Below, piece by piece: positions 33,027 through 43,930 of a stretch of DNA of 64,000 nucleotides. This stretch comes from an uncultured Lachnospiraceae bacterium. Lineage in GTDB: Bacteria; Bacillota; Clostridia; Lachnospirales; Lachnospiraceae. The notes below the pieces were generated by a model. That model was not told where the DNA came from and did not search any database. It saw nothing but the letters and a program-made list of their open reading frames with translations. Both the position numbers and the translations under genes were made by a program. The stretch is taken from assembly GCA_944376125.1 (NCBI GenBank), contig CALWBQ010000005.1:60161-124160 (forward strand). Reading direction: 5' to 3'. Positions within the stretch are counted from its first letter, which is position 1. Every line of letters starts with the position of its first letter.

Positions 33027-33389
33027 TTATAATATTTGTTTGCGGCTGGCAAATTCCTGACGTATCTTTTCGATGGCTCTTTTCTCAATCCTGCTTACAT
33101 AAGATCTGGAAATCCCAAGGCTCCCGGCGATCTCCCTCTGGGTATGCTCATTTTTCCCGTAAAGCCCATACCGGAGAGTCAATACTGTTTTTTCAATTTC
33201 TTTCAGGCAAGTGTCACACGCCTGATACAGAGTCCTAATATCCTGATTCATAATCATCAGGTCGATGGTCTCTGTATTGTCTGTCTCAATTACATCTACA
33301 AGACTTACGCTTTCCCCGTCTTTGTCTATGCCGATCGGCTCGAAAAGAGAAACCTCTCTGGAATACTTTTTGCTGGCTCTCAGCAGCAT
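33027..33389 (-). CDS. sigK: RNA polymerase sigma-K, C-terminal half (SpoIIIC type)
   Basis: Encodes regions 3-4 of the mother-cell sporulation factor sigma-K: the LLRASKKYSREVSLFEPIG block and a region 4 helix-turn-helix near the end (TQREIAGSLGISRSYVSRIEKRA). It lacks region 2, so the 120-aa product alone cannot be a sigma factor. The reading frame continues upstream through Leu, Ile, Glu to the att core at 33398-33402, where it stops matching SigK. Joining that core to the one at 43663-43667 fuses it in frame to the N-terminal half. I therefore read it as the second exon-like half of a skin-interrupted sigK, not a decayed gene. Confidence 0.93.
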   Translation of the reverse strand: MLLRASKKYSREVSLFEPIGIDKDGESVSLVDVIETDNTETIDLMIMNQDIRTLYQACDTCLKEIEKTVLTLRYGLYGKNEHTQREIAGSLGISRSYVSRIEKRAIEKIRQEFASRKQIL

Positions 33390-33424
33390 GAGGATTTCAT
33401 TTGCTATCCTATCCCAGCGGCTTC
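33390..33424 (-). other. att site at the C-half end of the skin element
   Basis: Crossover core CATTT (plus strand, 33398-33402; AAATG on the coding strand). On its element side is a 21-bp arm (33404-33424) that is an inverted repeat of the arm at the other end, 19 of 21 matching. The chromosomal side carries SigK codons Glu-Ile-Leu-Met. Confidence 0.9.
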
Positions 33425-33970
33425 CTATTTTTCATAATGGAATTCTGTGATGCCGACGATATCATTCTGGTCTTTTCCAAGAACAATGTAAGCTGTCCCA
33501 AGATCTCCTACGACAGCTGTCCCATCCTGGATTTCCAGCTTGTCCGTATCAAACTCTTTGACTGCCGTTAACAGTTCGTCGGTATACAATGAATCCAATC
33601 CCATTTTTTCCAGATCACCCTCATCCTTCAAGATGGTCTCCTGATCCCCCTTCACTACCCTTACAGGAAAATTGCACAGGTAGCTCAGGTATTCTGTGGT
33701 CAAGCCCGTGGTGATCTCCATCTGTGCCGTGGAAGCGGTGGACCGAAACAGCGCCGTATCCATATCGATATCATCGGCACTCTCTTCACTATCCGCCTGC
33801 TCACTGCTCTCCGTTTCAGCCGCCTCCGATGATGCCGGCAGCTCTGCGGTTGTCTGTACCGCTTCTTGCTTCGGCTTTCCTTCGGGTTTCTGCAGTTCAA
33901 ATGGCAGTCCCGCACACGCAGTCAGGTTTACGCTGGCACATATGGCCAGCAAGACTAAGATTTTTTTCAT
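33425..33970 (-). CDS. Skin-encoded lipoprotein of unknown function
   Basis: 181 aa. MKKILVLLAICASVNLTAC is a lipoprotein signal peptide with lipobox LTAC at about 16-19. It is followed by an acidic, Ser/Glu-rich low-complexity linker (about 45-75) and a small C-terminal domain (about 80-181) that I do not recognise. The stop codon directly abuts the att arm. It is third in line after the response regulator and kinase genes at 34-36 kb, so it may be part of their signalling unit, for example as an extracytoplasmic accessory. Confidence 0.7.
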   Translation of the reverse strand: MKKILVLLAICASVNLTACAGLPFELQKPEGKPKQEAVQTTAELPASSEAAETESSEQADSEESADDIDMDTALFRSTASTAQMEITTGLTTEYLSYLCNFPVRVVKGDQETILKDEGDLEKMGLDSLYTDELLTAVKEFDTDKLEIQDGTAVVGDLGTAYIVLGKDQNDIVGITEFHYEK

Positions 33971-34053
33971 AGCATTTCTCTCCTTCTTCTTTTTTAGCAG
34001 CTCTATCTTAACAAACTCTCCTTCAAGCTCCCTTTAGGCTCTATAAAGATTTA

Positions 34054-35631
34054 TTAAGATTTAGGAAGAGAAATCAGAAATGCCGCCCCTTCTCCCCCAG
34101 GGGGGTCGGCAAGCTGGATCGTGCCTCCGTGAAGGGATATGATCTGATGGACAATCGCCAGCCCCAGCCCGGAGCCATGACTGGTTCCTCTGGACTCATC
34201 TCCGGTCACAAATGGTACAAATATTTTGTCTGCCAGCTTTGGGGAAATTCCTGGCCCATTGTTCGCAATAAGCAGGAAGATCTGGCGGCCTTCTTCCCAG
34301 AGATGTACAGATACTGTGATCCCCGGTCCCCCGTAAGCCATACTGTTATTAATCAGGTTTTCCAATGCTCTGCAGAACAGAAAGCGGTCTAAATGACAGC
34401 TGAGCGGATTGTCCGGCAATTCGGCTTCCAAAGAAATTCCAGCCAGTTCCAGCTCCTGATATCGCTCCGCAAGATATTCCTGGCACACGGCACCGATATC
34501 CTCCTTCCTCAGATCAGCCCGCATCCCGGGGTGGTCCAGCTTGCTGTACTCGTGGAAGGCTGAAAGGAGCTGGCTTACGCGCTGCGTCTTCTTTACAATA
34601 GTATCCAGGTAAATCGCTTCCTCTTGGAGCGGAACCATCTTATCTCTAAGTGCTGCCGCATATCCCCCGATGACAGTAATCGGTGTTTTCAGATCATGGG
34701 AAATATCCGCCAGAAGACGCCTCCGATCTTCGCTGCTCTTTTCCAGCCTTTGTTCCATCTCTATAAAGTTTTCTGCAATTTCTGCAAATTCCTCCGGTCC
34801 CTGGTAATGTTCCAGGTGCCCCGGCTGCCCTTTTGAAAAGCTGACAATGGCCTGATTAAAGGGCTGAAGCAGTTTCTTTGTCTTTCTGTTTAGGAAGTAA
34901 ATACAGCCGACCGCCGCACACAGATAAGCAGGTATAAACAAGAACCACATATAATCCCAAGCCCTATATATATTCTGATATGTCTTGTAGTCCGGCTCAA
35001 AAAATCGAAAAATCAGATGGCGCACAGCTCCCTCTGGCGTTTCATAAGTATGTCTGTATATCCTCCTTCCCTGCTGATCTGTCCCTCTCAGCCAGGAGAT
35101 CTCCTGGGCTGTAAAGGCGGTTTTCCCTGGAAAAAGAGTACCGGAAATCACTGTCTGATCCCCGTTCAGAAGGAGGTAGCCTGAAACTGATGCCTCCCCG
35201 CTCTCCTGATATTTCAGGCGGGTGATCAGATATCCGCCCTTTAACGAGTCTTCTAACTCTGCTGTCAAATATTGAGTGTCCGATATGTATTCTGAAATAT
35301 ATTTCCATTCGTCTCCTGGAACATCTCCATCCCCCAGCTCAGCCCCGCTCTGAAAGAGTTCTCTCCCATCTCCGTCTATCAGCTGAACTGCATACCCATC
35401 TCCTAAATACCTGTCCAATTTCAGCGTGCTGAATCTCTCATCCGGGGTATTCTCAGCCTCCTCTAGGAATCCGGCGATATCCGGAATAGGAGCGATCGTT
35501 TCCATCAGCAAGCTGTATCCGCAGTAGATTCCGACAAAGACACAGAGAACCACCACCGTAAATACGATATAATAAACAGCCAAAATCCGGTAAAAGCTCC
35601 CTCTTTTCTGATTATGGATTTTTATACTCAA
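34054..35631 (-). CDS. Sensor histidine kinase (skin element, left)
   Basis: 525-aa membrane kinase. A first transmembrane helix lies at about 14-38, an extracytoplasmic sensor of about 170 aa follows, and a second helix near 232-252 (YMWFLFIPAYLCAAVGCIYFL) leads into a HAMP-like linker. The HisKA phosphoacceptor is LADISHDLKTPITVIGGYAAAL (H near 310). The ATPase has N (NLINNSMAYGG), G1 (IANNGPGI) and G2 (SHGSGLGLAIV) boxes. It overlaps the response regulator by 20 bp. The signal is unknown. Confidence 0.93.
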   Translation of the reverse strand: MSIKIHNQKRGSFYRILAVYYIVFTVVVLCVFVGIYCGYSLLMETIAPIPDIAGFLEEAENTPDERFSTLKLDRYLGDGYAVQLIDGDGRELFQSGAELGDGDVPGDEWKYISEYISDTQYLTAELEDSLKGGYLITRLKYQESGEASVSGYLLLNGDQTVISGTLFPGKTAFTAQEISWLRGTDQQGRRIYRHTYETPEGAVRHLIFRFFEPDYKTYQNIYRAWDYMWFLFIPAYLCAAVGCIYFLNRKTKKLLQPFNQAIVSFSKGQPGHLEHYQGPEEFAEIAENFIEMEQRLEKSSEDRRRLLADISHDLKTPITVIGGYAAALRDKMVPLQEEAIYLDTIVKKTQRVSQLLSAFHEYSKLDHPGMRADLRKEDIGAVCQEYLAERYQELELAGISLEAELPDNPLSCHLDRFLFCRALENLINNSMAYGGPGITVSVHLWEEGRQIFLLIANNGPGISPKLADKIFVPFVTGDESRGTSHGSGLGLAIVHQIISLHGGTIQLADPPGGEGAAFLISLPKS

Positions 35632-36328
35632 TTTTATATCCTATCCCCCTCACAGTTTTGATGTAGCTGGGATTTTTGGAATCATCTTCCAGTTTTTCTC
35701 TCAGCTTAGATATATGAACCATCATCGTTTTATCATCGCTTTCTGAAAATCCGCCGCTAATGCTGTCATACAGCTGAGCCTTTGTAAATACCCGGCCCGG
35801 CGACTGCATCATGCGGGCAAGAATCCGAAATTCCGTAGGTGTCAATTCCACAGGCTGCCCATCTTTTTCCAGCTTCATCCTGTCAAGATCCAGAGAAAGG
35901 CCGCCCACTTTCAAAATTCTCTCTGACTCCTGCCGGATACCGGAGCCCAGCTTATAAAAGCGGCGCAGATTTGCCTGAACATGGGCGACAACCTCCAAGG
36001 GGTTAAAAGGCTTAGTCAGATAAGAATCCGCCCCCAAATTCAGTCCCAAAATCTTATGATGATCCTGGTCCTTTGCTGTTAGAAACAGTACCGGAATATT
36101 GGCAGACGCCCGAATTTTTTCCAGCACCTGATATCCGTCAAGCCCTGGCATCATAATGTCCAGCAGGGCAAGATCCACTGGCTCTCTCTCCATTTCCCGC
36201 AGAGCTTTCCTCCCGTCTTCTGCCAAAATCACTCTAAATCCGCTGCTCTCCAGATAGAGCTTCAGCAGGGAGCGGATATCTTTGTCATCCTCCGCAACTA
36301 AAATTGTATATTGTCTCTGTGCTTCCAT
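35612..36328 (-). CDS. OmpR-family response regulator (skin element, left)
   Basis: 238 aa. Receiver: acidic pair EDDKD at 12-16, phosphoacceptor Asp in LALLDIMMPGLDG near 55, Lys in FLTAKD near 105. The C-terminal winged helix includes LTPTEFRILARMMQSPGRVFTKAQLYDSI and the terminal RGIGYKIE. It is the first gene of the RR-kinase-lipoprotein unit behind an extended -10 element (TGGTATACT, -10 at 36395-36400) just downstream of the recombinase stop. Confidence 0.95.
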   Translation of the reverse strand: MEAQRQYTILVAEDDKDIRSLLKLYLESSGFRVILAEDGRKALREMEREPVDLALLDIMMPGLDGYQVLEKIRASANIPVLFLTAKDQDHHKILGLNLGADSYLTKPFNPLEVVAHVQANLRRFYKLGSGIRQESERILKVGGLSLDLDRMKLEKDGQPVELTPTEFRILARMMQSPGRVFTKAQLYDSISGGFSESDDKTMMVHISKLREKLEDDSKNPSYIKTVRGIGYKIEYKNP

Positions 36329-36394
36329 AGCTCGTATTCTCTCCCCTTCATTTCCATGGTTTGCCCGGAACCGCTTTGCCTGGCCCGGGCCTTG

Positions 36395-36400
36395 AGTATA
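36395..36400 (-). promoter_or_regulatory. Extended -10 element upstream of the skin response regulator
   Basis: Minus strand TGG-TATACT. The -35 region at 17 bp spacing is poor (TTTCGG), so an activator such as the response regulator itself may be needed. GC-rich self-complementary sequence follows in the leader. Confidence 0.4.
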
Positions 36401-36409
36401 CCATACCCT

Positions 36410-37963
36410 TCAGGTTTCCGAAAGTCTTTTCCCGCAGGCTTCCTGCCGAATTTTCTGTTCCCCTTCAGCTCCAGCTAAAAAAATATGGAGTGTTTCTCCA
36501 TCCCAGACGATCTGCTCTGTCAGACTTCCAATGATTCTCCGCTTATCTTCTGTCTGCAGTCCCTTTGCCAGCTCCTGAAAGGAAGAAAGGCTCTCCCTCA
36601 GCGTCTCTATCCTCTCTTTTGTCCAATATGCCTGGCTTCTCAGCTCTCTTTCTTCTTCCACCTGTGCCGCAGCCCTGCATCTCTGGTCTGCAGCCGCCTT
36701 TCTTTTTCCCTTTTCCAGTTCTCTTCTAAATACTTCCCTGTCCTCTTCCAAACCTGCCAGCGCCTCTAAAACAGCGCTGTCAGCAGCTTTCCCATTGGCG
36801 TTTTTTTCAGAACATCTGCTCCGTCTGCTTTTTTCTTTTAATGTGCATAAATATGAGTAACCTCTTTCCCCATCCTGTTTTTTCCTTCCTGACAGCTTGG
36901 GTCTCATATGTGCTCCGCACGCTCCGCAAATCAGGCGTCCAGTCAGCAATGCCTGTGAATTTCTGGGTCTTCTATAGCCGTGAGAACAATTTCTGTCTAG
37001 AAGTTCCTGCACCCGGATCCAAGTGCTTCCATCTACCAGCGGCTCATGGCCTCCTGCTGCGACAATCCACTCTTGGATCGGTCTTATTTTATTTGTTTTC
37101 CCAGGCTGCTGGAGAGAGCGGTTGTATGCCATCACACCTTTTGTCCCGTCAAAAGCCTCCTTCCCCGGAAACAATTCCGCTCCCCGGAGCGAAAAAAAGC
37201 GGAATGCATCTTCATCTGCTGCCATGTAAACAGGATTTGACAGAATTCCCTTTACCGCAAACCTGCTGAACTCTCTCCCTGTTTTCGTGCGCAGCCCTCT
37301 CTCAAGCAGAAAGTCTTCTGTCTGACGCAGAGAACCGCTTTCCAAAAATTTTCTATACATCATTTTTACCAGCACAGCTTCCTCCGGCACCACTTTGAGC
37401 CGGCAGAATTTTCTGATTTTGCCGTCCTGGGAAGGGCCTGAAACCGTTTCAGACTGGAATCCAGTAGGTGTCATTCCCCCAAGCCATCTTCCAGTTTTTG
37501 CCAATTCTCTCATATTATCCCGAATCCGTTCGGCTATCGTCTCTCTCTCCAGCTGGGAAAAAACAGAGGAAATATACATCATGGCTCTCCCCATAGGCGA
37601 TGAGGTGTCAAACTGTTCCCGGATCGAAATAAAATCAACCGATAGCTCCTCCAGTCTGCGGATCAGTCCGGCAAAGTCCCCTATATTCCGGCTGATTCTG
37701 TCCAGCCGGTACACAACGATGGCGGCAATCCTTCCCTCTTTTGCCTTTTCCATCATTTTCTTAAACTGCGGCCGTTCCAGATTTCCTCCTGAAAATCCCT
37801 CATCCTCATAAATTTGAGCCTGATCCGCCGCAGTACTTCCAAAGTTCCTGCTGATATACTGTCTGCACATTTCGATCTGATTTTCAATACTTTCTCCCTT
37901 TCCGGTAAAGCGGGACTTCCTTGAGTAGATTACAAAATACTTTTCTACTTCCATCTTCTCCAT
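36410..37963 (-). CDS. spoIVCA: Large serine recombinase, SpoIVCA type
   Basis: 517 aa, the size of SpoIVCA. The N-terminal resolvase domain has the catalytic Ser in VIYSRKSRFTGKGESIENQ near 12-16, EDEGFSGGNLERPQF near 53, YRLDRISRNIGD near 85 and REQFDTSSPMGRAMM near 118. A recombinase domain follows (about 160-290), then a zinc ribbon (CGACGAHM ... C, with a second Cys pair about 20 residues on, near 345-385) and a C-terminal coiled coil (about 400-480). Its position inside an element that splits sigK makes it the excisase/integrase for sigK rearrangement. A divergent small ORF shares its upstream region. Confidence 0.93.
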   Translation of the reverse strand: MEKMEVEKYFVIYSRKSRFTGKGESIENQIEMCRQYISRNFGSTAADQAQIYEDEGFSGGNLERPQFKKMMEKAKEGRIAAIVVYRLDRISRNIGDFAGLIRRLEELSVDFISIREQFDTSSPMGRAMMYISSVFSQLERETIAERIRDNMRELAKTGRWLGGMTPTGFQSETVSGPSQDGKIRKFCRLKVVPEEAVLVKMMYRKFLESGSLRQTEDFLLERGLRTKTGREFSRFAVKGILSNPVYMAADEDAFRFFSLRGAELFPGKEAFDGTKGVMAYNRSLQQPGKTNKIRPIQEWIVAAGGHEPLVDGSTWIRVQELLDRNCSHGYRRPRNSQALLTGRLICGACGAHMRPKLSGRKKQDGERGYSYLCTLKEKSRRSRCSEKNANGKAADSAVLEALAGLEEDREVFRRELEKGKRKAAADQRCRAAAQVEEERELRSQAYWTKERIETLRESLSSFQELAKGLQTEDKRRIIGSLTEQIVWDGETLHIFLAGAEGEQKIRQEACGKRLSET

Positions 37964-38088
37964 CCTTTTCCTGTTCCGTCTACCATCTCATATGCAAATT
38001 TCTCTTATTCCATGCCGGAAGGCAGCCATTTGCATATAGGACATCTTAAAATCCATATATTAAATAGAACAATCTCATAGAGGCTGCC
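37964..38088. promoter_or_regulatory. Divergent control region with 10-bp inverted repeat and sigma-E-like promoter
   Basis: Perfect inverted repeat ATATGCAAAT (37990-37999) / ATTTGCATAT (38028-38037). On the plus strand a sigma-E-type promoter reads -35 GCATATA (38032-38038), 15-bp spacer, -10 CATATATT (38054-38061), upstream of the 55-aa ORF. The -35 is a full match to the kmATAww consensus and the -10 matches 6 of 8. On the minus strand, GCATGGA-N14-CATATGAG is a weaker equivalent for the recombinase. Confidence 0.5.
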
Positions 38089-38256
38089 ATGAACACTATT
38101 CTTTATTTTCCCGAATCGCCGGCCGCAAAAAAAGAACTCGCCCGCCAGGCAGCTTTTCTCCACGCCCAGGCTATCCTGGAAATCCTGGATTCTCTTTGTC
38201 TTTCATCTGAGCAAAAGGTTCTCCTCATTCATGCGCTGGAAAAGGCTGAATTGTGA
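38089..38256 (+). CDS. 55-aa skin protein, candidate recombination directionality factor
   Basis: Small acidic/hydrophobic helical protein that begins MNTILYFPESPAAKKELARQ and ends in LLIHALEKAEL. No domain is recognised. It is divergently paired with the serine recombinase and preceded by a sigma-E-like promoter (38032-38061). In Clostridioides difficile, skin excision needs SpoIVCA plus a small skin-encoded directionality factor made under sigma-E control. By position, size and promoter this ORF is the best candidate here; sequence homology to that factor was not testable. AGAGG at 38080-38084 is only 4 nt before the ATG, a weak site. Confidence 0.6.
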   Translation: MNTILYFPESPAAKKELARQAAFLHAQAILEILDSLCLSSEQKVLLIHALEKAEL

Positions 38257-38433
38257 AATTTCTGTGTCTATCCGGCTGTTTTCAGAGTAACTAAAGGTTT
38301 CCGCGCTACCATATTTTTATCTCTATTATAACGTCAGTGCACAAAGGACCATGCGGCCGATAAAGGGCTGCATTTTCCTGCCTCTCCTGACGCCAGTAGA
38401 AGAAATAACAACCCAGAAAAGAGGAGACAACCT

Positions 38434-39630
38434 ATGAACAGGAACTTATTCTTACGTTCTAAAACCAAGCGGATCAAAACGCTCGCCGCAGGAGCCATGG
38501 TGGCCGCCATGATGGCCGGATTTTCCATGACTTCTTATGCTGACGGCGGCCTGGAAATCCACACCGAATACCCAGGGGTCACGGCCAAAGCCGGAGACAG
38601 CCTGACCTTCACCATCGATCTGGATAATTCCGGATCTGCCTGCGATGCCTCTCTGTCTGTCGCTTCCATGCCGGAAGGATGGGAAGGCTACATATCCGGC
38701 GGGAGCAGCGATCGGATCACCAGAGTCCACGTTCCCAACGGGACCGATTCTGCCAGCGCAACTCTCCACCTGGAAGTCCCTGCTGATGCCGCTGACGGCA
38801 GCTATCAGGTAGTCCTGGAAGCCCAGGGGGACAATGCCTCCTACGACAGTCTGACCCTTTATCTGGATGTCGATCAGCTGGAAGTAAGCCAGGGTGACTT
38901 TTCTTCTGAATATCCTGAGCAGGAGGGTTCTGCCGGAACTTCATTCAGCTTCAACGCTACCTTGATCAACAACAGCGCCGAAGAGCAGTCCTACAGTCTC
39001 GCCGCCAATGCCCCTGACGGATGGCAGGTTGCTTTTAAACCCAGCGGCGAATCCACTCAAGTAGCCAGCATTACTTTGGAACCGGCTGTCAGTCAGGGTC
39101 TCACCATCACTGTGACCCCTCCCAACAATGTATCAGCCGGTGATTATACCATCCCATGCAGTGCCATCTCCGCGGGAGAAAGCCTGGATATGGAACTGTC
39201 TGTCACTGTAACAGAGAGCTATGATCTGTCTTTAAGCACTCCGGACGGGCGCCTCAGTTTTGACACTGTCGCCGGAGATGAATCTGATGTCACTCTCTCC
39301 GTCACCAACAATAGCAACGTGGCTGTGGAAAATGTCAATCTGACTGCATCTGCCCCCACCGGCTGGAATGTCAGTTTTGACACCCCTACCATCGATGTCA
39401 TTGAGGCCGGCGCGACTGTGGAGGTTGCCGCCCATGTGACACCTTCATCCGAGGCGCTGACAGGCGACTATGTGGTCACTATGACAGCCAATGCCAGTGA
39501 AGTCTCCGACAGCGCTGAATTCCGGGTAGCAGTAGAAACCAGCATCGTATGGGGGTTCGCAGCGGTTGCCATTATCGTTGTTCTGCTGGCCGCCATTGGC
39601 TATATCTTCCGAAAATACGGGAGGCGGTAA
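38434..39630 (+). CDS. NEW3-domain membrane-anchored protein of a skin ABC system
   Basis: 398 aa with GAGGAG seven nt before the ATG. A basic N-terminus and signal peptide end near TSYADGG (about 38). Three beta-sandwich repeats of the NEW3 (COG1470-like) type follow, each with a GWxVxF-like core (MPEGWEGYI, APDGWQVAF, APTGWNVSF) and GDYxVxxxA endings. A C-terminal transmembrane helix (about 368-392) and RRKYGRR-like basic tail keep it in the membrane. It directly precedes the ABC ATPase gene (3 bp), so it is likely the extracytoplasmic part of that transporter. Confidence 0.85.
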   Translation: MNRNLFLRSKTKRIKTLAAGAMVAAMMAGFSMTSYADGGLEIHTEYPGVTAKAGDSLTFTIDLDNSGSACDASLSVASMPEGWEGYISGGSSDRITRVHVPNGTDSASATLHLEVPADAADGSYQVVLEAQGDNASYDSLTLYLDVDQLEVSQGDFSSEYPEQEGSAGTSFSFNATLINNSAEEQSYSLAANAPDGWQVAFKPSGESTQVASITLEPAVSQGLTITVTPPNNVSAGDYTIPCSAISAGESLDMELSVTVTESYDLSLSTPDGRLSFDTVAGDESDVTLSVTNNSNVAVENVNLTASAPTGWNVSFDTPTIDVIEAGATVEVAAHVTPSSEALTGDYVVTMTANASEVSDSAEFRVAVETSIVWGFAAVAIIVVLLAAIGYIFRKYGRR

Positions 39631-39633
39631 TTT

Positions 39634-40638
39634 ATGGCTCAGACAAATAAGATTATGATCCAGACCACTGGTCTTACAAAAAAATATGGAACCAAGACGG
39701 CAGTGGATCATCTGGACCTGTCCATCTTCTCCGGCGAGATTTTCGGCCTTTTAGGGCCTAACGGCGCAGGAAAGACAACCACCACCCTGATGCTTACCGG
39801 CTTGACAGAACCGACAGAGGGGACGGCTTTTATCGATGGCAGAGACTGTATCCGCGAGCCCATGGAAGTCAAGAAAATTGTGGGCTACATGCCGGATAAT
39901 GTAGGCTTTTATCCGGACATGACCGGAAGAGAAAATCTGCGGTTTACCGCTGCTCTGAACGGCTTGGAAAAGCAGGCCGCGGAGGAGGCCATTGACCGCC
40001 TCTTGGAACGGACAGGGCTGACAGAAGCCGGAAATCAGAAAGTAGGAACCTATTCAAGAGGTATGCGCCAGCGCCTCGGCGTCGCGGATGTCCTGATTAA
40101 AGATCCGTCTGTCATCATTATGGATGAGCCTACCCTTGGAATTGACCCGGAAGGAATGAGGGAATTGATTGCTCTGATACGGGATCTGTCCAAAACCGAG
40201 GGACGGACAGTCTTGATCTCTTCCCATCAGCTTTACCAGGTACAGCAGATCTGCGACCGCGTGGGTCTGTTCGTAGGCGGAAAACTGACCGCCTGCGGCA
40301 CCATTGAAGAGCTGGCTGAACAGACCCGGGAAGATAATCAGTATCTCACTGAAATCCGGGTGATTTCCGGCGACAACCGCCTGACTCAGCTTCTGAAAGA
40401 CGTTCCAGGAGTTCTGAGCGTCGGCAGAGAGGGCAGCCGCTACATGGTAGGCAGCAGTCAGGATATTACTGATATCCTGGTAGACCGGATCCGCGCGGAG
40501 GGCTATTCCATTTCCAGCCTGCGTCCCTGCGGAAACGATCTGGATGAAATTTATCGGAGATATTTTGAAAAGGCAGGTCATGATTATGACACAAACAATC
40601 GCAAAAAAGTTAAAAAACTCTTTTCCCGCAGCCGCTGA
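39634..40638 (+). CDS. ABC transporter ATP-binding protein (skin element)
   Basis: 334 aa. Walker A GPNGAGKTTT near 41, Q-loop region (MPDNVGFYPDMTGRENL), signature YSRGMRQRLG near 138, Walker B VIIMDEPTLGID near 158, H-loop SSHQ. The CcmA/DrrA-type C-terminal regulatory domain (about 220-320) is present. It belongs to the ABC-2 export class. It overlaps the permease gene by 53 bp, so the pair is translationally coupled. Confidence 0.95.
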   Translation: MAQTNKIMIQTTGLTKKYGTKTAVDHLDLSIFSGEIFGLLGPNGAGKTTTTLMLTGLTEPTEGTAFIDGRDCIREPMEVKKIVGYMPDNVGFYPDMTGRENLRFTAALNGLEKQAAEEAIDRLLERTGLTEAGNQKVGTYSRGMRQRLGVADVLIKDPSVIIMDEPTLGIDPEGMRELIALIRDLSKTEGRTVLISSHQLYQVQQICDRVGLFVGGKLTACGTIEELAEQTREDNQYLTEIRVISGDNRLTQLLKDVPGVLSVGREGSRYMVGSSQDITDILVDRIRAEGYSISSLRPCGNDLDEIYRRYFEKAGHDYDTNNRKKVKKLFSRSR

Positions 40639-41599
40639 GCCCGGGAATCACCACGAAAAATATATCGGTCTGCGGGCTTTATTTCACAAAGAGATGGCCG
40701 ACCATATTCGCAGCAGAAGGTTTCTCCTGATTCTGGCTCTGGTGGTTTTAACCGGCTTTGCAAGCCTTTATGGCGCCTTAAGCAGCATCTCATCTGTTGT
40801 GGAGGACGGAGGAGATTTTATTTTCTTAAAGCTCTTTACTACCAGCGGGAATTCCATCCCCTCTTTTGTCTCATTCATCGCTCTGCTGGGGCCGTTTATC
40901 GGCTTGGCACTAGGGTTTGATGCCATAAACAGCGAAGAAAACAGCGGGACGCTAAACAGGCTTTTGTCTCAGCCAATCTACCGGGACAGTGTTATCAATG
41001 GAAAGTTTCTCGCCGGGGCTGCCATTATTTTTGTCATGATTTTTGTTATGGGCGGCATGGTCAGCGCTATCGGCCTGTTGGCAATCGGGATTCCGCCCAG
41101 TTTTGAAGAGGCAGGACGGATTGTGGTATTTCTTTTCTTTACCAGCGTATACGTCTGCTTCTGGCTGGGGCTGTCGATCCTGTTTTCTGTACTCTGCCGC
41201 CATGCGGCAACCAGTGCTCTGGCAGTCATCGCCTGCTGGCTGGTATTTACAATCTTTATGAGTCTCCTGGCTGGCATCATCGCAGCTGCCCTCTATCCCC
41301 TGGATGGTTATCAGGCTCTCTTCAATATGATGGATTACTATAAGTGCGAGCTGTTCATCAACCGCCTGTCCCCATACTATCTGTACAGTGAGGCAGTCAC
41401 TACCATTCTGAACCCAGGAGTCCGTTCTGTGGGAATCGTCACGACATCCCAGCTAGAAGGTGCCGTTGCCGGCTATCTTCCATTTGGTCAGAGTCTTCTT
41501 CTGATCTGGCCTCATTTGGTGGCCATGTGTGCCATGACTCTGATTGCCTTTGTCATTGCATATTTAAAGTTCATGCGCCGGGAAATCCGGGCCAATTAA
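40586..41599 (+). CDS. ABC-2 type permease (skin element)
   Basis: 337 aa with about six membrane helices. The start is taken at 40586 (MTQTIAKKL), where AAGGCAGG lies 8 nt upstream; an ATG 6 bp earlier is too close to it. The cytoplasmic N-terminus HKEMADHIRSRRF leads into helix 1, and the NosY-like EENSGTLNRLLSQPIYRDSVINGKFLAG motif at about 115-140 is typical of ABC2 family 5 permeases. Partner of the preceding ATPase and NEW3 protein; the exported substrate is unknown. A terminator follows 17 bp after the stop. Confidence 0.9.
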   Translation: MTQTIAKKLKNSFPAAAEPGNHHEKYIGLRALFHKEMADHIRSRRFLLILALVVLTGFASLYGALSSISSVVEDGGDFIFLKLFTTSGNSIPSFVSFIALLGPFIGLALGFDAINSEENSGTLNRLLSQPIYRDSVINGKFLAGAAIIFVMIFVMGGMVSAIGLLAIGIPPSFEEAGRIVVFLFFTSVYVCFWLGLSILFSVLCRHAATSALAVIACWLVFTIFMSLLAGIIAAALYPLDGYQALFNMMDYYKCELFINRLSPYYLYSEAVTTILNPGVRSVGIVTTSQLEGAVAGYLPFGQSLLLIWPHLVAMCAMTLIAFVIAYLKFMRREIRAN

Positions 41600-41616
41600 G
41601 CGCTGACTGCTATGCA

Positions 41617-41653
41617 AAATGCTCCTGGTCTCTTGACTTTAGGAGCATTTTTG
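41617..41653 (+). terminator. Terminator of the skin ABC operon
   Basis: AATGCTCCT stem, 14-nt loop, AGGAGCATT, then TTTT. It separates the ABC operon from the second two-component system. Confidence 0.85.
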
Positions 41654-41726
41654 TATTAAATGATGGTAGCGTCCATACAAAATGATTAATACCTTCAAAC
41701 TTTGACACGAAAGGGAGATGGAATGA

Positions 41727-42422
41727 TTGAGAATTTTAATTATAGAAGACAATAAAAGGCTGGCAGAATCTCTCTCCGATATCCTGAAACACCTTCGCTA
41801 TGAGTCTGATATCTGCCTCAATGGAACCGACGGATACTCCCGCCTCATAAGCGGCCTGTATGACGGTGCGATCCTTGATGTCATGCTTCCTGGAATGGAC
41901 GGCATCACCTTGCTCAGAAAAGCCCGGAAGCTCCAATGCACTACTCCGGTACTGATGCTGACAGCCAAAAGCGAAACGGAGGACAAGGTTGCCGGGCTGG
42001 AGGGCGGTGCTGACTATTATCTGACAAAGCCTTTTGATACAGATGAGTTGGCAGCCGCACTGCGGGCCATTCTTCGCCGCGGAGGAGAATTTATCCCAGA
42101 TATCCTCTCCTTCGGCGATATTTCTCTAAATCAGTCTACTTACTGTCTGGAAAAAGACGGAAAAAGCATCCGCCTGGGCAAACGAGAATTTGAAGTCCTT
42201 CGGATTCTGATGAACCACAAGGGCGCTGTAGCTTCAAAAGAACTGCTTCTCGTCAAAATTTGGGGCAATGACAGCGACGCAGTAGACAACAACGTAGAGA
42301 TCTACATTTCTTTTCTCAGAAAAAAATTAGAATTTTTAAAAGCAAAGACCTCGATTGTCACAGCGCGCCACCTGGGCTATTTTTTGTCTGAAGAAAAGGG
42401 GAGGGAACATCCTGCAACATGA
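41727..42422 (+). CDS. OmpR-family response regulator (skin element, right)
   Basis: 231 aa from a TTG start with AAGGGAG upstream. Receiver: EDN at 7-9, phosphoacceptor Asp in GAILDVMLPGMDG near 51, Lys in MLTAKSE near 101. The C-terminal winged helix contains LGKREFEVLRILMNHKGAVASKELLLVKIWG and ends in RHLGYFL. Its stop overlaps the kinase ATG (ATGA). It lies downstream of the ABC operon terminator, so it can be expressed separately and may regulate that operon. Confidence 0.94.
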   Translation: MRILIIEDNKRLAESLSDILKHLRYESDICLNGTDGYSRLISGLYDGAILDVMLPGMDGITLLRKARKLQCTTPVLMLTAKSETEDKVAGLEGGADYYLTKPFDTDELAAALRAILRRGGEFIPDILSFGDISLNQSTYCLEKDGKSIRLGKREFEVLRILMNHKGAVASKELLLVKIWGNDSDAVDNNVEIYISFLRKKLEFLKAKTSIVTARHLGYFLSEEKGREHPAT

Positions 42423-43657
42423 AAGAACTGAAACGTCTGAGGATCAAATTTATCATATCAAACATGGCTATGGTCACTCTCGTGATCGGTCTGGCCTTTC
42501 TGACTATCGGGTATGTCACAAAGTCCAGGGTGGATGCCGCTAATGAGCAGATTCTGGAGAGAATGTATTCCGAAAATATACAGGATTTTTTCAGTGCTCC
42601 GGAAGAGATGAGGATGCCTTATTTTATCGTCGTGACGGACCAGAAAAATCAGATTATACGGGTGGATGGCCAATATCGCCTGGAACCAGAAGACGAATTT
42701 CTTCGCTATCTGGCTGCGGCCAGCCTGGCTGCAGCCGATGACCGCGGCTTTCTGGAAGACTATCATCTTCAGTTTGCGCGCAGACCTTTTGAGAGCGGAT
42801 ATATCATTACTTATGTGGACACCAGCCTTGGGCAGTCATACTCTGACGGAACCTGGCGAACGCTGGCCATCATTGGAACGGCTGTATGGCTTTCCCTGTT
42901 TGCTGCTAGCTGTATTCTGTCAAAATGGGCGGTAACTCCTGTCGGCGAATCCATCCGACGCGAAAAGCAGTTCGTAGCGGATGCCTCCCACGAGCTCAAG
43001 ACTCCGCTTACCGTCATCATGGCCAATGCTCAGCTTTTGGAGGAATCAGAGGATTCTGACCTGTCCCAGGATTCCCGGCGCTGGATCACAAATATCTGCC
43101 AGGAGGCCGCCGACATGAAAAAGCTGGTGGAAGAAATGCTGACGCTGGCCCGAAACGAAGCCTCAGGAAAAGTAAAAACAAAAGAGATTTGCTGTCTCAG
43201 CGATCTTGTGACAGAGAACCTTCTCTCATTTGAGGCCGTCTTTTACCAATCTGACAAAATCCTTGAGAGCGCTGTTGAAGAGGATATTCAGTTAAAGGGT
43301 GACTGCAAACAGCTCTCCAGCTTGGTCCGAATTTTATTGGATAATGCTGAAAAGTACTCTTCTGCCGGGGGCAGAATCTATGTCAATCTTCAGAGAACAG
43401 CCAAACGCAGGGCCCGCCTTCTAGTCAGCAATACCGGGGAAGAAATTCCAGCCAATCAGAGAAGCGTTATATTTGACCGTTTCTACCGCTCCGATATGTC
43501 CCGCACAGACAGGAAAGGCTATGGTCTGGGACTAGCCATTGCAAAAAGCATAATAGAAAGCCACCGGGGAACCATCTGGGTGGAATCCTCCGGCGGCAAA
43601 AATCAGTTTTTTGTGGAATTTAAGGTTCTTCCTTCCCCGCAGAAGCCGCAGCGATAG
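42419..43657 (+). CDS. Sensor histidine kinase (skin element, right)
   Basis: 412 aa. Transmembrane helices lie at about 14-34 and 142-164 around an extracytoplasmic sensor of some 105 aa. HisKA phosphoacceptor in VADASHELKTPLTVIMANAQLL (H near 196). HATPase N box ILLDNAEKYSS, G1 SNTGEEI, F/G2 RKGYGLGLAIAKSI. No clear HAMP. Its stop codon lies within the right att arm (43642-43662), so the gene is flush with the end of the element. Confidence 0.93.
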   Translation: MKELKRLRIKFIISNMAMVTLVIGLAFLTIGYVTKSRVDAANEQILERMYSENIQDFFSAPEEMRMPYFIVVTDQKNQIIRVDGQYRLEPEDEFLRYLAAASLAAADDRGFLEDYHLQFARRPFESGYIITYVDTSLGQSYSDGTWRTLAIIGTAVWLSLFAASCILSKWAVTPVGESIRREKQFVADASHELKTPLTVIMANAQLLEESEDSDLSQDSRRWITNICQEAADMKKLVEEMLTLARNEASGKVKTKEICCLSDLVTENLLSFEAVFYQSDKILESAVEEDIQLKGDCKQLSSLVRILLDNAEKYSSAGGRIYVNLQRTAKRRARLLVSNTGEEIPANQRSVIFDRFYRSDMSRTDRKGYGLGLAIAKSIIESHRGTIWVESSGGKNQFFVEFKVLPSPQKPQR

Positions 43658-43930
43658 GATAGCATTTTCTACACATTTGACTGCATATGTGGCCAGCCTG
43701 GAACCCCGGTCTGTCTTAAAGGTATTGACCGCCTTGATAAGGCCAATTGTCCCCACCGACAACAGATCGTCCATATCGTAGTCTGTCCCCTGGTATTTTT
43801 TTACCACATGTGCTACCAGACGCATATTGCGCTCTATCAATGTATCCCTAGCTGCCTGGTCCCCGGCCTTTACCAGCTCCAGACATTCTTTCTCTTCCGC
43901 TGCAGTCAATGGCTTTGGAAATGTCTTCAA
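43532..43930 (-). CDS. sigK: RNA polymerase sigma-K, N-terminal half (SpoIVCB type)
   Basis: Residues 1-89 are sigma-K region 1.2-2 (LIERNMRLVAHVVKKYQGTDYDMDDLLSVGTIGLIKAVNTFK and LATYAVKCVEN). After Asn-89 the frame crosses the att core at 43663-43667 and reads 43 unrelated residues from the element before stopping at 43532, antisense to the kinase gene. Start TTG at 43930 with AAGGCGG upstream; there is no ATG in frame before the preceding stop. The protein begins KTFPKPLTAAEEKE, so there is no pro-sequence. Joined at the cores it makes a 212-aa SigK. Confidence 0.92.
   Translation of the reverse strand: MKTFPKPLTAAEEKECLELVKAGDQAARDTLIERNMRLVAHVVKKYQGTDYDMDDLLSVGTIGLIKAVNTFKTDRGSRLATYAVKCVENAILSLRLLRGRKNLKFHKKLIFAAGGFHPDGSPVAFYYAFCNG
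43642..43680 (-). other. att site at the N-half end of the skin element
   Basis: Core CATTT on the plus strand (43663-43667), with the 21-bp arm at 43642-43662 on the element side. On the chromosomal side are the SigK codons for Val-Glu-Asn. Confidence 0.9.

Follow-up and report, generated by a model that had tools for sequence, protein, structure and literature searches.

The textbook example of programmed excision of DNA in bacteria is provided by skin elements. The question raised by the locus described here is whether the sigK gene of an uncultured Lachnospiraceae bacterium, which is interrupted by a DNA element of 10,265 bp (the distance between its two short cores), represents a further case of this kind or a gene that has been lost. 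The locus was analysed in a window of 64,000 nt (contig CALWBQ010000005.1, positions 60,161 to 124,160), and all coordinates without another designation refer to this window. The interrupting DNA is a sigK-intervening, skin-type element: the two halves of the gene lie on one strand, a common core and inverted repeats mark the ends, a recombinase gene is inside, and this sigK is the only one found in the assembly. Very probably (about 0.85), the element is excised at its AAATG core in the mother cell by the recombinase together with a small protein, a likely recombination directionality factor (RDF).

The split gene and the ends of the element

The 5' part of sigK is located at 43663–43930 on the minus strand and has codons 1–89 plus one base. 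Its start is the TTG at 43930, upstream of which there is no in-frame start. The 3' part is coded on the same strand at 33027–33402 and includes a copy of the core. The cores, AAATG on the minus strand and CATTT on the plus strand, are at 43663–43667 at the N-part junction and at 33398–33402 at the C-part junction. When the halves are joined, 639 nt are obtained that code for 212 aa without any internal stop and with the sequence ...VENEILM... over the join. An initial annotation of this DNA had given the same halves, core positions and spacing, all of which were reproduced, and its in-frame fusion was recovered by translation of the joined 639 nt. Its description of a skin-type element with exact junctions and a serine recombinase inside was borne out as well, the recombinase having the domains of a large serine recombinase. 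A complete sigK elsewhere in the genome had been named there as evidence to the contrary. In the assembly, which comprises 3.29 Mb in 71 contigs and is 97.1% complete, a second complete SigK was not found; the next full-length match (C4:16084) is 44% identical and is SigE-like by its upstream sequence.

The ends of the element form a 23-bp inverted repeat. One arm of 23 nt is at 43642–43664 and overlaps the last codons of a histidine kinase gene (42419–43657), and the other, also of 23 nt, is at 33402–33424. The arms are 91% complementary, with an exact 12-bp core within, and at least 21 matches of 23 have a chance probability of about 3e-11 in one given register. The junction of the circle reads GATAGGATAGCA-AA-TGCTATCCTATC, which is a 12-bp palindrome centred on AA, and ends of this palindromic form would be expected of the attP site of a large serine recombinase. 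According to the centre of the palindrome, the crossover is predicted at the central AA of AAATG, that is, at 43665–43666 and 33400–33401.

The break is at the same sigK codons across 28 element rows from several families (two of the rows come from one contig). Four core bases are common to both sides in 25 of the 28 rows, which also have similar arms, and two rows differ by one base. Elements in these rows have sizes of 2,654–11,508 bp, and a further element, in genome G035, is about 25 kb long. Because of the 23-bp inverted repeat and of the same break recurring in other genomes, the split is more than a product of chance.

The recombinase and the divergent 55-aa ORF

The large serine recombinase of 517 aa is coded at 36410–37963 on the minus strand and is predicted to excise the element. 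Pfam families Resolvase, Recombinase and Zn_ribbon_recom were identified in it, all over their curated cut-offs. Its Ser17 aligned opposite the serine of the IYTRVS motif of TP901-1 integrase, presumably the catalytic, nucleophilic residue. As relatives, the best 80 of 407 in the species collection were taken, many of them close kin (Lacrimispora). Among all loci of the analysis, L022 and L157 are one contig, and so are L066 and L162. A sigK half accompanies the recombinase in 75 of the 80 relatives' loci, which belong to several families. In 67 of them, the C-part lies at most 400 nt downstream of the recombinase, in four the N-part lies at most 400 nt downstream on the opposite strand, and in four a half is elsewhere in the locus. 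Four of the five loci without a sigK half have less than 300 nt of contig remaining. Where the recombinase faces the opposite-strand N-part (L023, L076, L081, and L099), the arrangement looks as though the content of the element were inverted. A Terrisporobacter phage integrase is 42.5% identical to the recombinase, and neither sigK nor an attP-like sequence was found in the stretch of it that was read. The initial annotation regarded the window element as an independent version; given the sigK halves at 75 of the 80 nearest recombinase relatives and the same core and similar ends in 25 of the 28 elements, this is not supported.

Divergent from the recombinase gene is an ORF of 55 aa (38089–38256, plus strand). 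This conserved ORF and the SigE-type promoter before it go beyond the initial annotation, as does the lack of a pro-sequence in SigK. It is the sole ORF besides the recombinase that was found across the elements compared. By tblastn with four members and by a profile built from the matches, it was recognized in 36 of 88 loci; among the loci fetched by their recombinase, each of the 20 with both halves of sigK has it. In several Oscillospiraceae, it is located near the N-part of sigK. A sample of 150 Lachnospiraceae genera was searched with SigK, which gave seven genomes with two SigK pieces and a SigE match, and the profile of the small protein was positive in eight genomes of the same sample. 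It thus occurs in 7/7 genomes with split sigK vs. 1/143 others (Fisher p 2.7e-11). A class-wide sample had the protein in 11 of 293 genomes. Taking both samples together, there are 18 distinct genomes with the small protein, picked by its profile alone and with the window's included, and a truncated sigK half was in the fetched stretch in 16 of them. No convincing match to Pfam or NCBIfam and no match to PHROGs was found for members of the family, and there was no solved relative by profile (best E 0.13) or by fold (none at E <= 0.001). Its predicted fold has two helices, and 285 protein clusters match the family at E <= 0.01. The co-occurrence and the SigE-type −10 box make the 55-aa protein a candidate, and a likely one, for the RDF that would confine excision to the mother cell.

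The promoter-like sequence, GCATATA-N15-CATATATT, is upstream of the ORF at 38032–38061 (plus strand) and is of SigE type. The −10 box was scored against the SigE −10 consensus with a threshold of at least 7/8, and 26 of 34 loci were taken, as upstream regions at least 80% identical were dropped. A SigE-type −10 box is situated 19–34 nt before the start of the small ORF in 21 of these 26 non-redundant loci, with the full 8/8 match in 13. In 1000 shuffles, 1.6 loci were positive on average and never more than 7, and other upstream windows gave 0–2. The same test upstream of the recombinase was positive in 3/25 loci, with a shuffle mean of 1.3. It is the −10 box that supports a SigE promoter, the combined −35/−10 scan being weak. 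Between the promoter boxes of Lachnospiraceae loci there is a GGACA or AGACA motif, which may be a SpoIIID site (core GGACA).

In the proposed mechanism, the recombinase would be made in most cells and would be unable to excise the element alone. SigE, perhaps with SpoIIID, would switch on the 55-aa protein in the mother cell only, and under its influence the recombinase would recombine attL x attR instead of attP x attB. The element would leave as a circle, with sigK joined through the central AA. The forespore would retain the split gene, and the element would therefore be inherited.

SigK of the window starts three residues before FPKPL and has no pro-sequence. The start codon keeps this position in all 29 intact sigK loci of Lachnospiraceae that were checked, which were those with the best scores, and in the 12 split loci of Lachnospiraceae type other than the window's. 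Because the pro-sequence is missing, SigK of the window may be gated after transcription mainly by excision, as described for C. difficile (PMC5025042). Nine other split loci (L023, L030, L047, L054, L058, L079, L081, L089, and L099) have a hydrophobic N-terminal SigK extension, and control by both the pro-sequence and excision may exist there.

It is also conceivable, albeit unlikely, that excision proceeds as described and the 55-aa protein is another conserved partner, e.g., a regulator of the recombinase gene, with the recombinase acting alone or with a different protein. A small protein that matches no family, and whose predicted two-helix fold matches nothing solved, would agree with this, as would its occurrence apart from sigK in genome G133. 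There, a member of the small family (L149:5701-5871) is in a stretch of 20 kb without a sigK half or a close recombinase, and sigK is uninterrupted elsewhere in the genome. On the other side, no other ORF accompanies the recombinase across the compared elements, and a SigE-type promoter precedes the small ORF. The size of its product is comparable with the RDFs of known skin elements, with 64 aa for Skr (PMC6957869) and 72 aa for CD1234 (PMC5025042). Moreover, the record of an Oscillospirales phage contains a member of the family (L191:12001-12150) that has two large serine recombinases within 5 kb.

Several results weigh against excision of the element in the mother cell by the recombinase and a small RDF. 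Such excision is itself predicted from the sequence. When −35 and −10 boxes were scanned together for the B. subtilis SigE consensus, only 11 of 34 loci scored above shuffled sequences at the 5% level. No match to the small ORF was obtained in 52 of the 88 scanned loci, many of which do not reach the N-part. Besides G133, where the small protein has no sigK element nearby, genome G335 has the small protein together with a recombinase in a fetched stretch of 20 kb that contains no sigK half, and the final third of the small protein of congener G003 does not match the family. The core of L167, the remaining one of the 28 element rows, does not fit. The recombinase of the window is 3 kb from the C-part, unlike in the 67 relatives mentioned above, and three cargo genes are located between them in the window and its congeners. 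Finally, a scan of viral contigs for the exact attP gave 0 matches.

Conservation of the element and weaker alternatives

A dead end, in which the element is stuck in sigK and the lineage does not complete sporulation, is quite improbable. The genome (G000) is a draft assembly and excision is predicted only, which would suit such an explanation, but selection on the locus speaks against it. Congeners G001 and G003 have the same element with all eight cargo genes syntenic, and compared with them, dN/dS of both sigK halves is 0.010–0.049. Both halves are under strong purifying selection, and the reading as a dead gene was rejected by these values. In the same comparisons, dN/dS of the cargo is 0.020–0.152 where computable, so that most cargo genes also have low values between species, and that of the small ORF is 0.18–0.23; for the recombinase, synonymous changes are saturated. 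The recombinase gene is uninterrupted and codes for all three domains, the ends are conserved in three congeners, and SpoIIID and Spo0A are present in the genome. Identity differs along the element, with 57–70% for the recombinase and 52–64% for the small ORF vs. 82–95% for the exporter cargo between congeners.

Uninterrupted sigK genes were found as well. Congener G002 has an uninterrupted sigK (80% identical) adjoined by galE. In G128, which belongs to a different genus, galE is followed by an intact sigK and then by purH, the last two being about 2 kb apart. Genome G152 was considered as a second kind of split and rejected, its sigK being otherwise continuous with a run of masked N within. 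A search for RNA families in the sigK stretch of G152 revealed a ZTP riboswitch only.

Marginally less probable than the dead end is an ordinary mobile element for which sigK happens to serve as attB and whose exit follows signals of its own, not the sporulation programme. Large serine recombinases often integrate into genes and the cargo of the relatives changes, as this explanation would have it. Against it, a Pfam scan of ten ORFs, those of the cargo and the recombinase included, identified no phage structural or lysis families and no conjugation families, and the prophage reading was rejected for the lack of any phage family in them. The SigE-type promoter before the small ORF, the G+C content of the element, which equals that of the surroundings (0.493 vs. 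0.487), and its retention in three congeners also speak against it. An assembly artefact, with an unrelated segment joined into sigK of a draft genome of 71 contigs, has a negligible probability and was rejected, as the layout is identical in the G001 and G003 assemblies and similar ends exist in other genera.

Known systems, spread, and cargo

Skin elements have been described from B. subtilis, C. difficile, C. tetani, C. perfringens, the B. cereus group, and Alicyclobacillus (PMC5025042, PMC6957869, PMC10745906, PMC13141910), and were called an exception in clostridia in 2016 (PMC5025042). The skinCd element of C. difficile is alike in sigK without a pro-sequence, in inverted repeats at its ends, in a recombinase gene that is located toward the 3' part of sigK and oriented like it, and in a small SigE-controlled directionality protein, CD1234, with a recombinase, CD1231, not tied to SigE (PMC5025042). 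Unlike skinCd, the window element is 10,265 bp long and carries genes for two two-component systems and an exporter, its recombinase is 3 kb from the 3' part, and its small ORF is divergent and codes for 55 aa vs. 72 aa of CD1234. The skinBs element of B. subtilis shares a 5-bp core with inverted repeats, a large serine recombinase (SpoIVCA), and a small RDF (Skr, 64 aa), but it is a 48-kb defective prophage with the core AATGA and with skr overlapping spoIVCA (PMC6957869, PMC10745906, PMC13141910). In the window, the core is AAATG, no phage genes were named, and the RDF candidate is divergent; SigK has no pro-sequence, unlike pro-SigK of B. subtilis.

Two elements in other genes are similar in part. 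The gin element of B. cereus (GirC, GirX) is not a phage element, interrupts a gene of the late mother cell and has a serine recombinase and an RDF, but its target is gerE, its size is 28.6 kb, and it has three recombinases (PMC5595907). The yin element of C. botulinum is likewise an intervening element and codes for a serine recombinase as well as for a small protein that is a putative RDF, with yabG instead of sigK as its target (PMC10747680). RDFs of the elements compared in that paper are all different (PMC10747680), whereas one family of small proteins recurs across many sigK elements here. No report of sigK elements in Lachnospiraceae or Ruminococcaceae-like bacteria was found in a literature search that did not cover a 2013 survey of sigK elements cited by PMC5595907, so that some of the loci could have been reported previously; a paper retrieved in it names SpoIVCA for B. 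subtilis only.

Judging from the sequences, other Clostridia of several families, though a minority of them (in 7 of the 150 Lachnospiraceae genera sampled), have sigK interrupted at the same site by related elements with this type of recombinase and a small protein that is a likely helper. With moderate confidence, this is one module dedicated to sigK, consisting of the recombinase, an RDF family of 55–75 aa under SigE and one type of attP, which was either spread among or retained by many clostridial families with the same cut and swapped cargo. If so, excision would be a general gate on SigK in these bacteria and would also remove the cargo from the mother-cell chromosome. What is new is how widely one module occurs, together with a family of RDF candidates found in no library searched. 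Control of excision in the mother cell becomes testable in harmless and culturable Lacrimispora, e.g., in L. celerecrescens or L. xylanisolvens, which have the element, and new integrase–RDF pairs could be obtained. The loci also offer a natural comparison of SigK control between split and intact genes, with or without the pro-sequence.

The cargo of the window element was annotated by Pfam, except for a 181-aa ORF (33425–33970, minus strand), lipoprotein-like by eye and without a Pfam family. The minus strand also codes for a sensor histidine kinase (34054–35631) and an OmpR-type response regulator (35612–36328). Predicted on the plus strand are a protein with NPCBM_assoc (NEW3) domains (38434–39630), an ABC transporter ATPase (39634–40638), an ABC-2 type membrane protein (40544–41599), whose true start is probably inside the ORF, a second response regulator (41727–42422), and a second sensor histidine kinase (42419–43657).

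The cargo differs among related sigK elements. In Lacrimispora and its kin, an alpha-galactosidase-like protein (L036:7555-8877) and both subunits of a [NiFe] hydrogenase (L074:7432-9719) are carried. The 2.65-kb element of L034 (8994-11652) has little beyond the recombinase, the small ORF, and an ORF of 168 aa, a relative of which in L036 has a cytochrome-b5-like domain.

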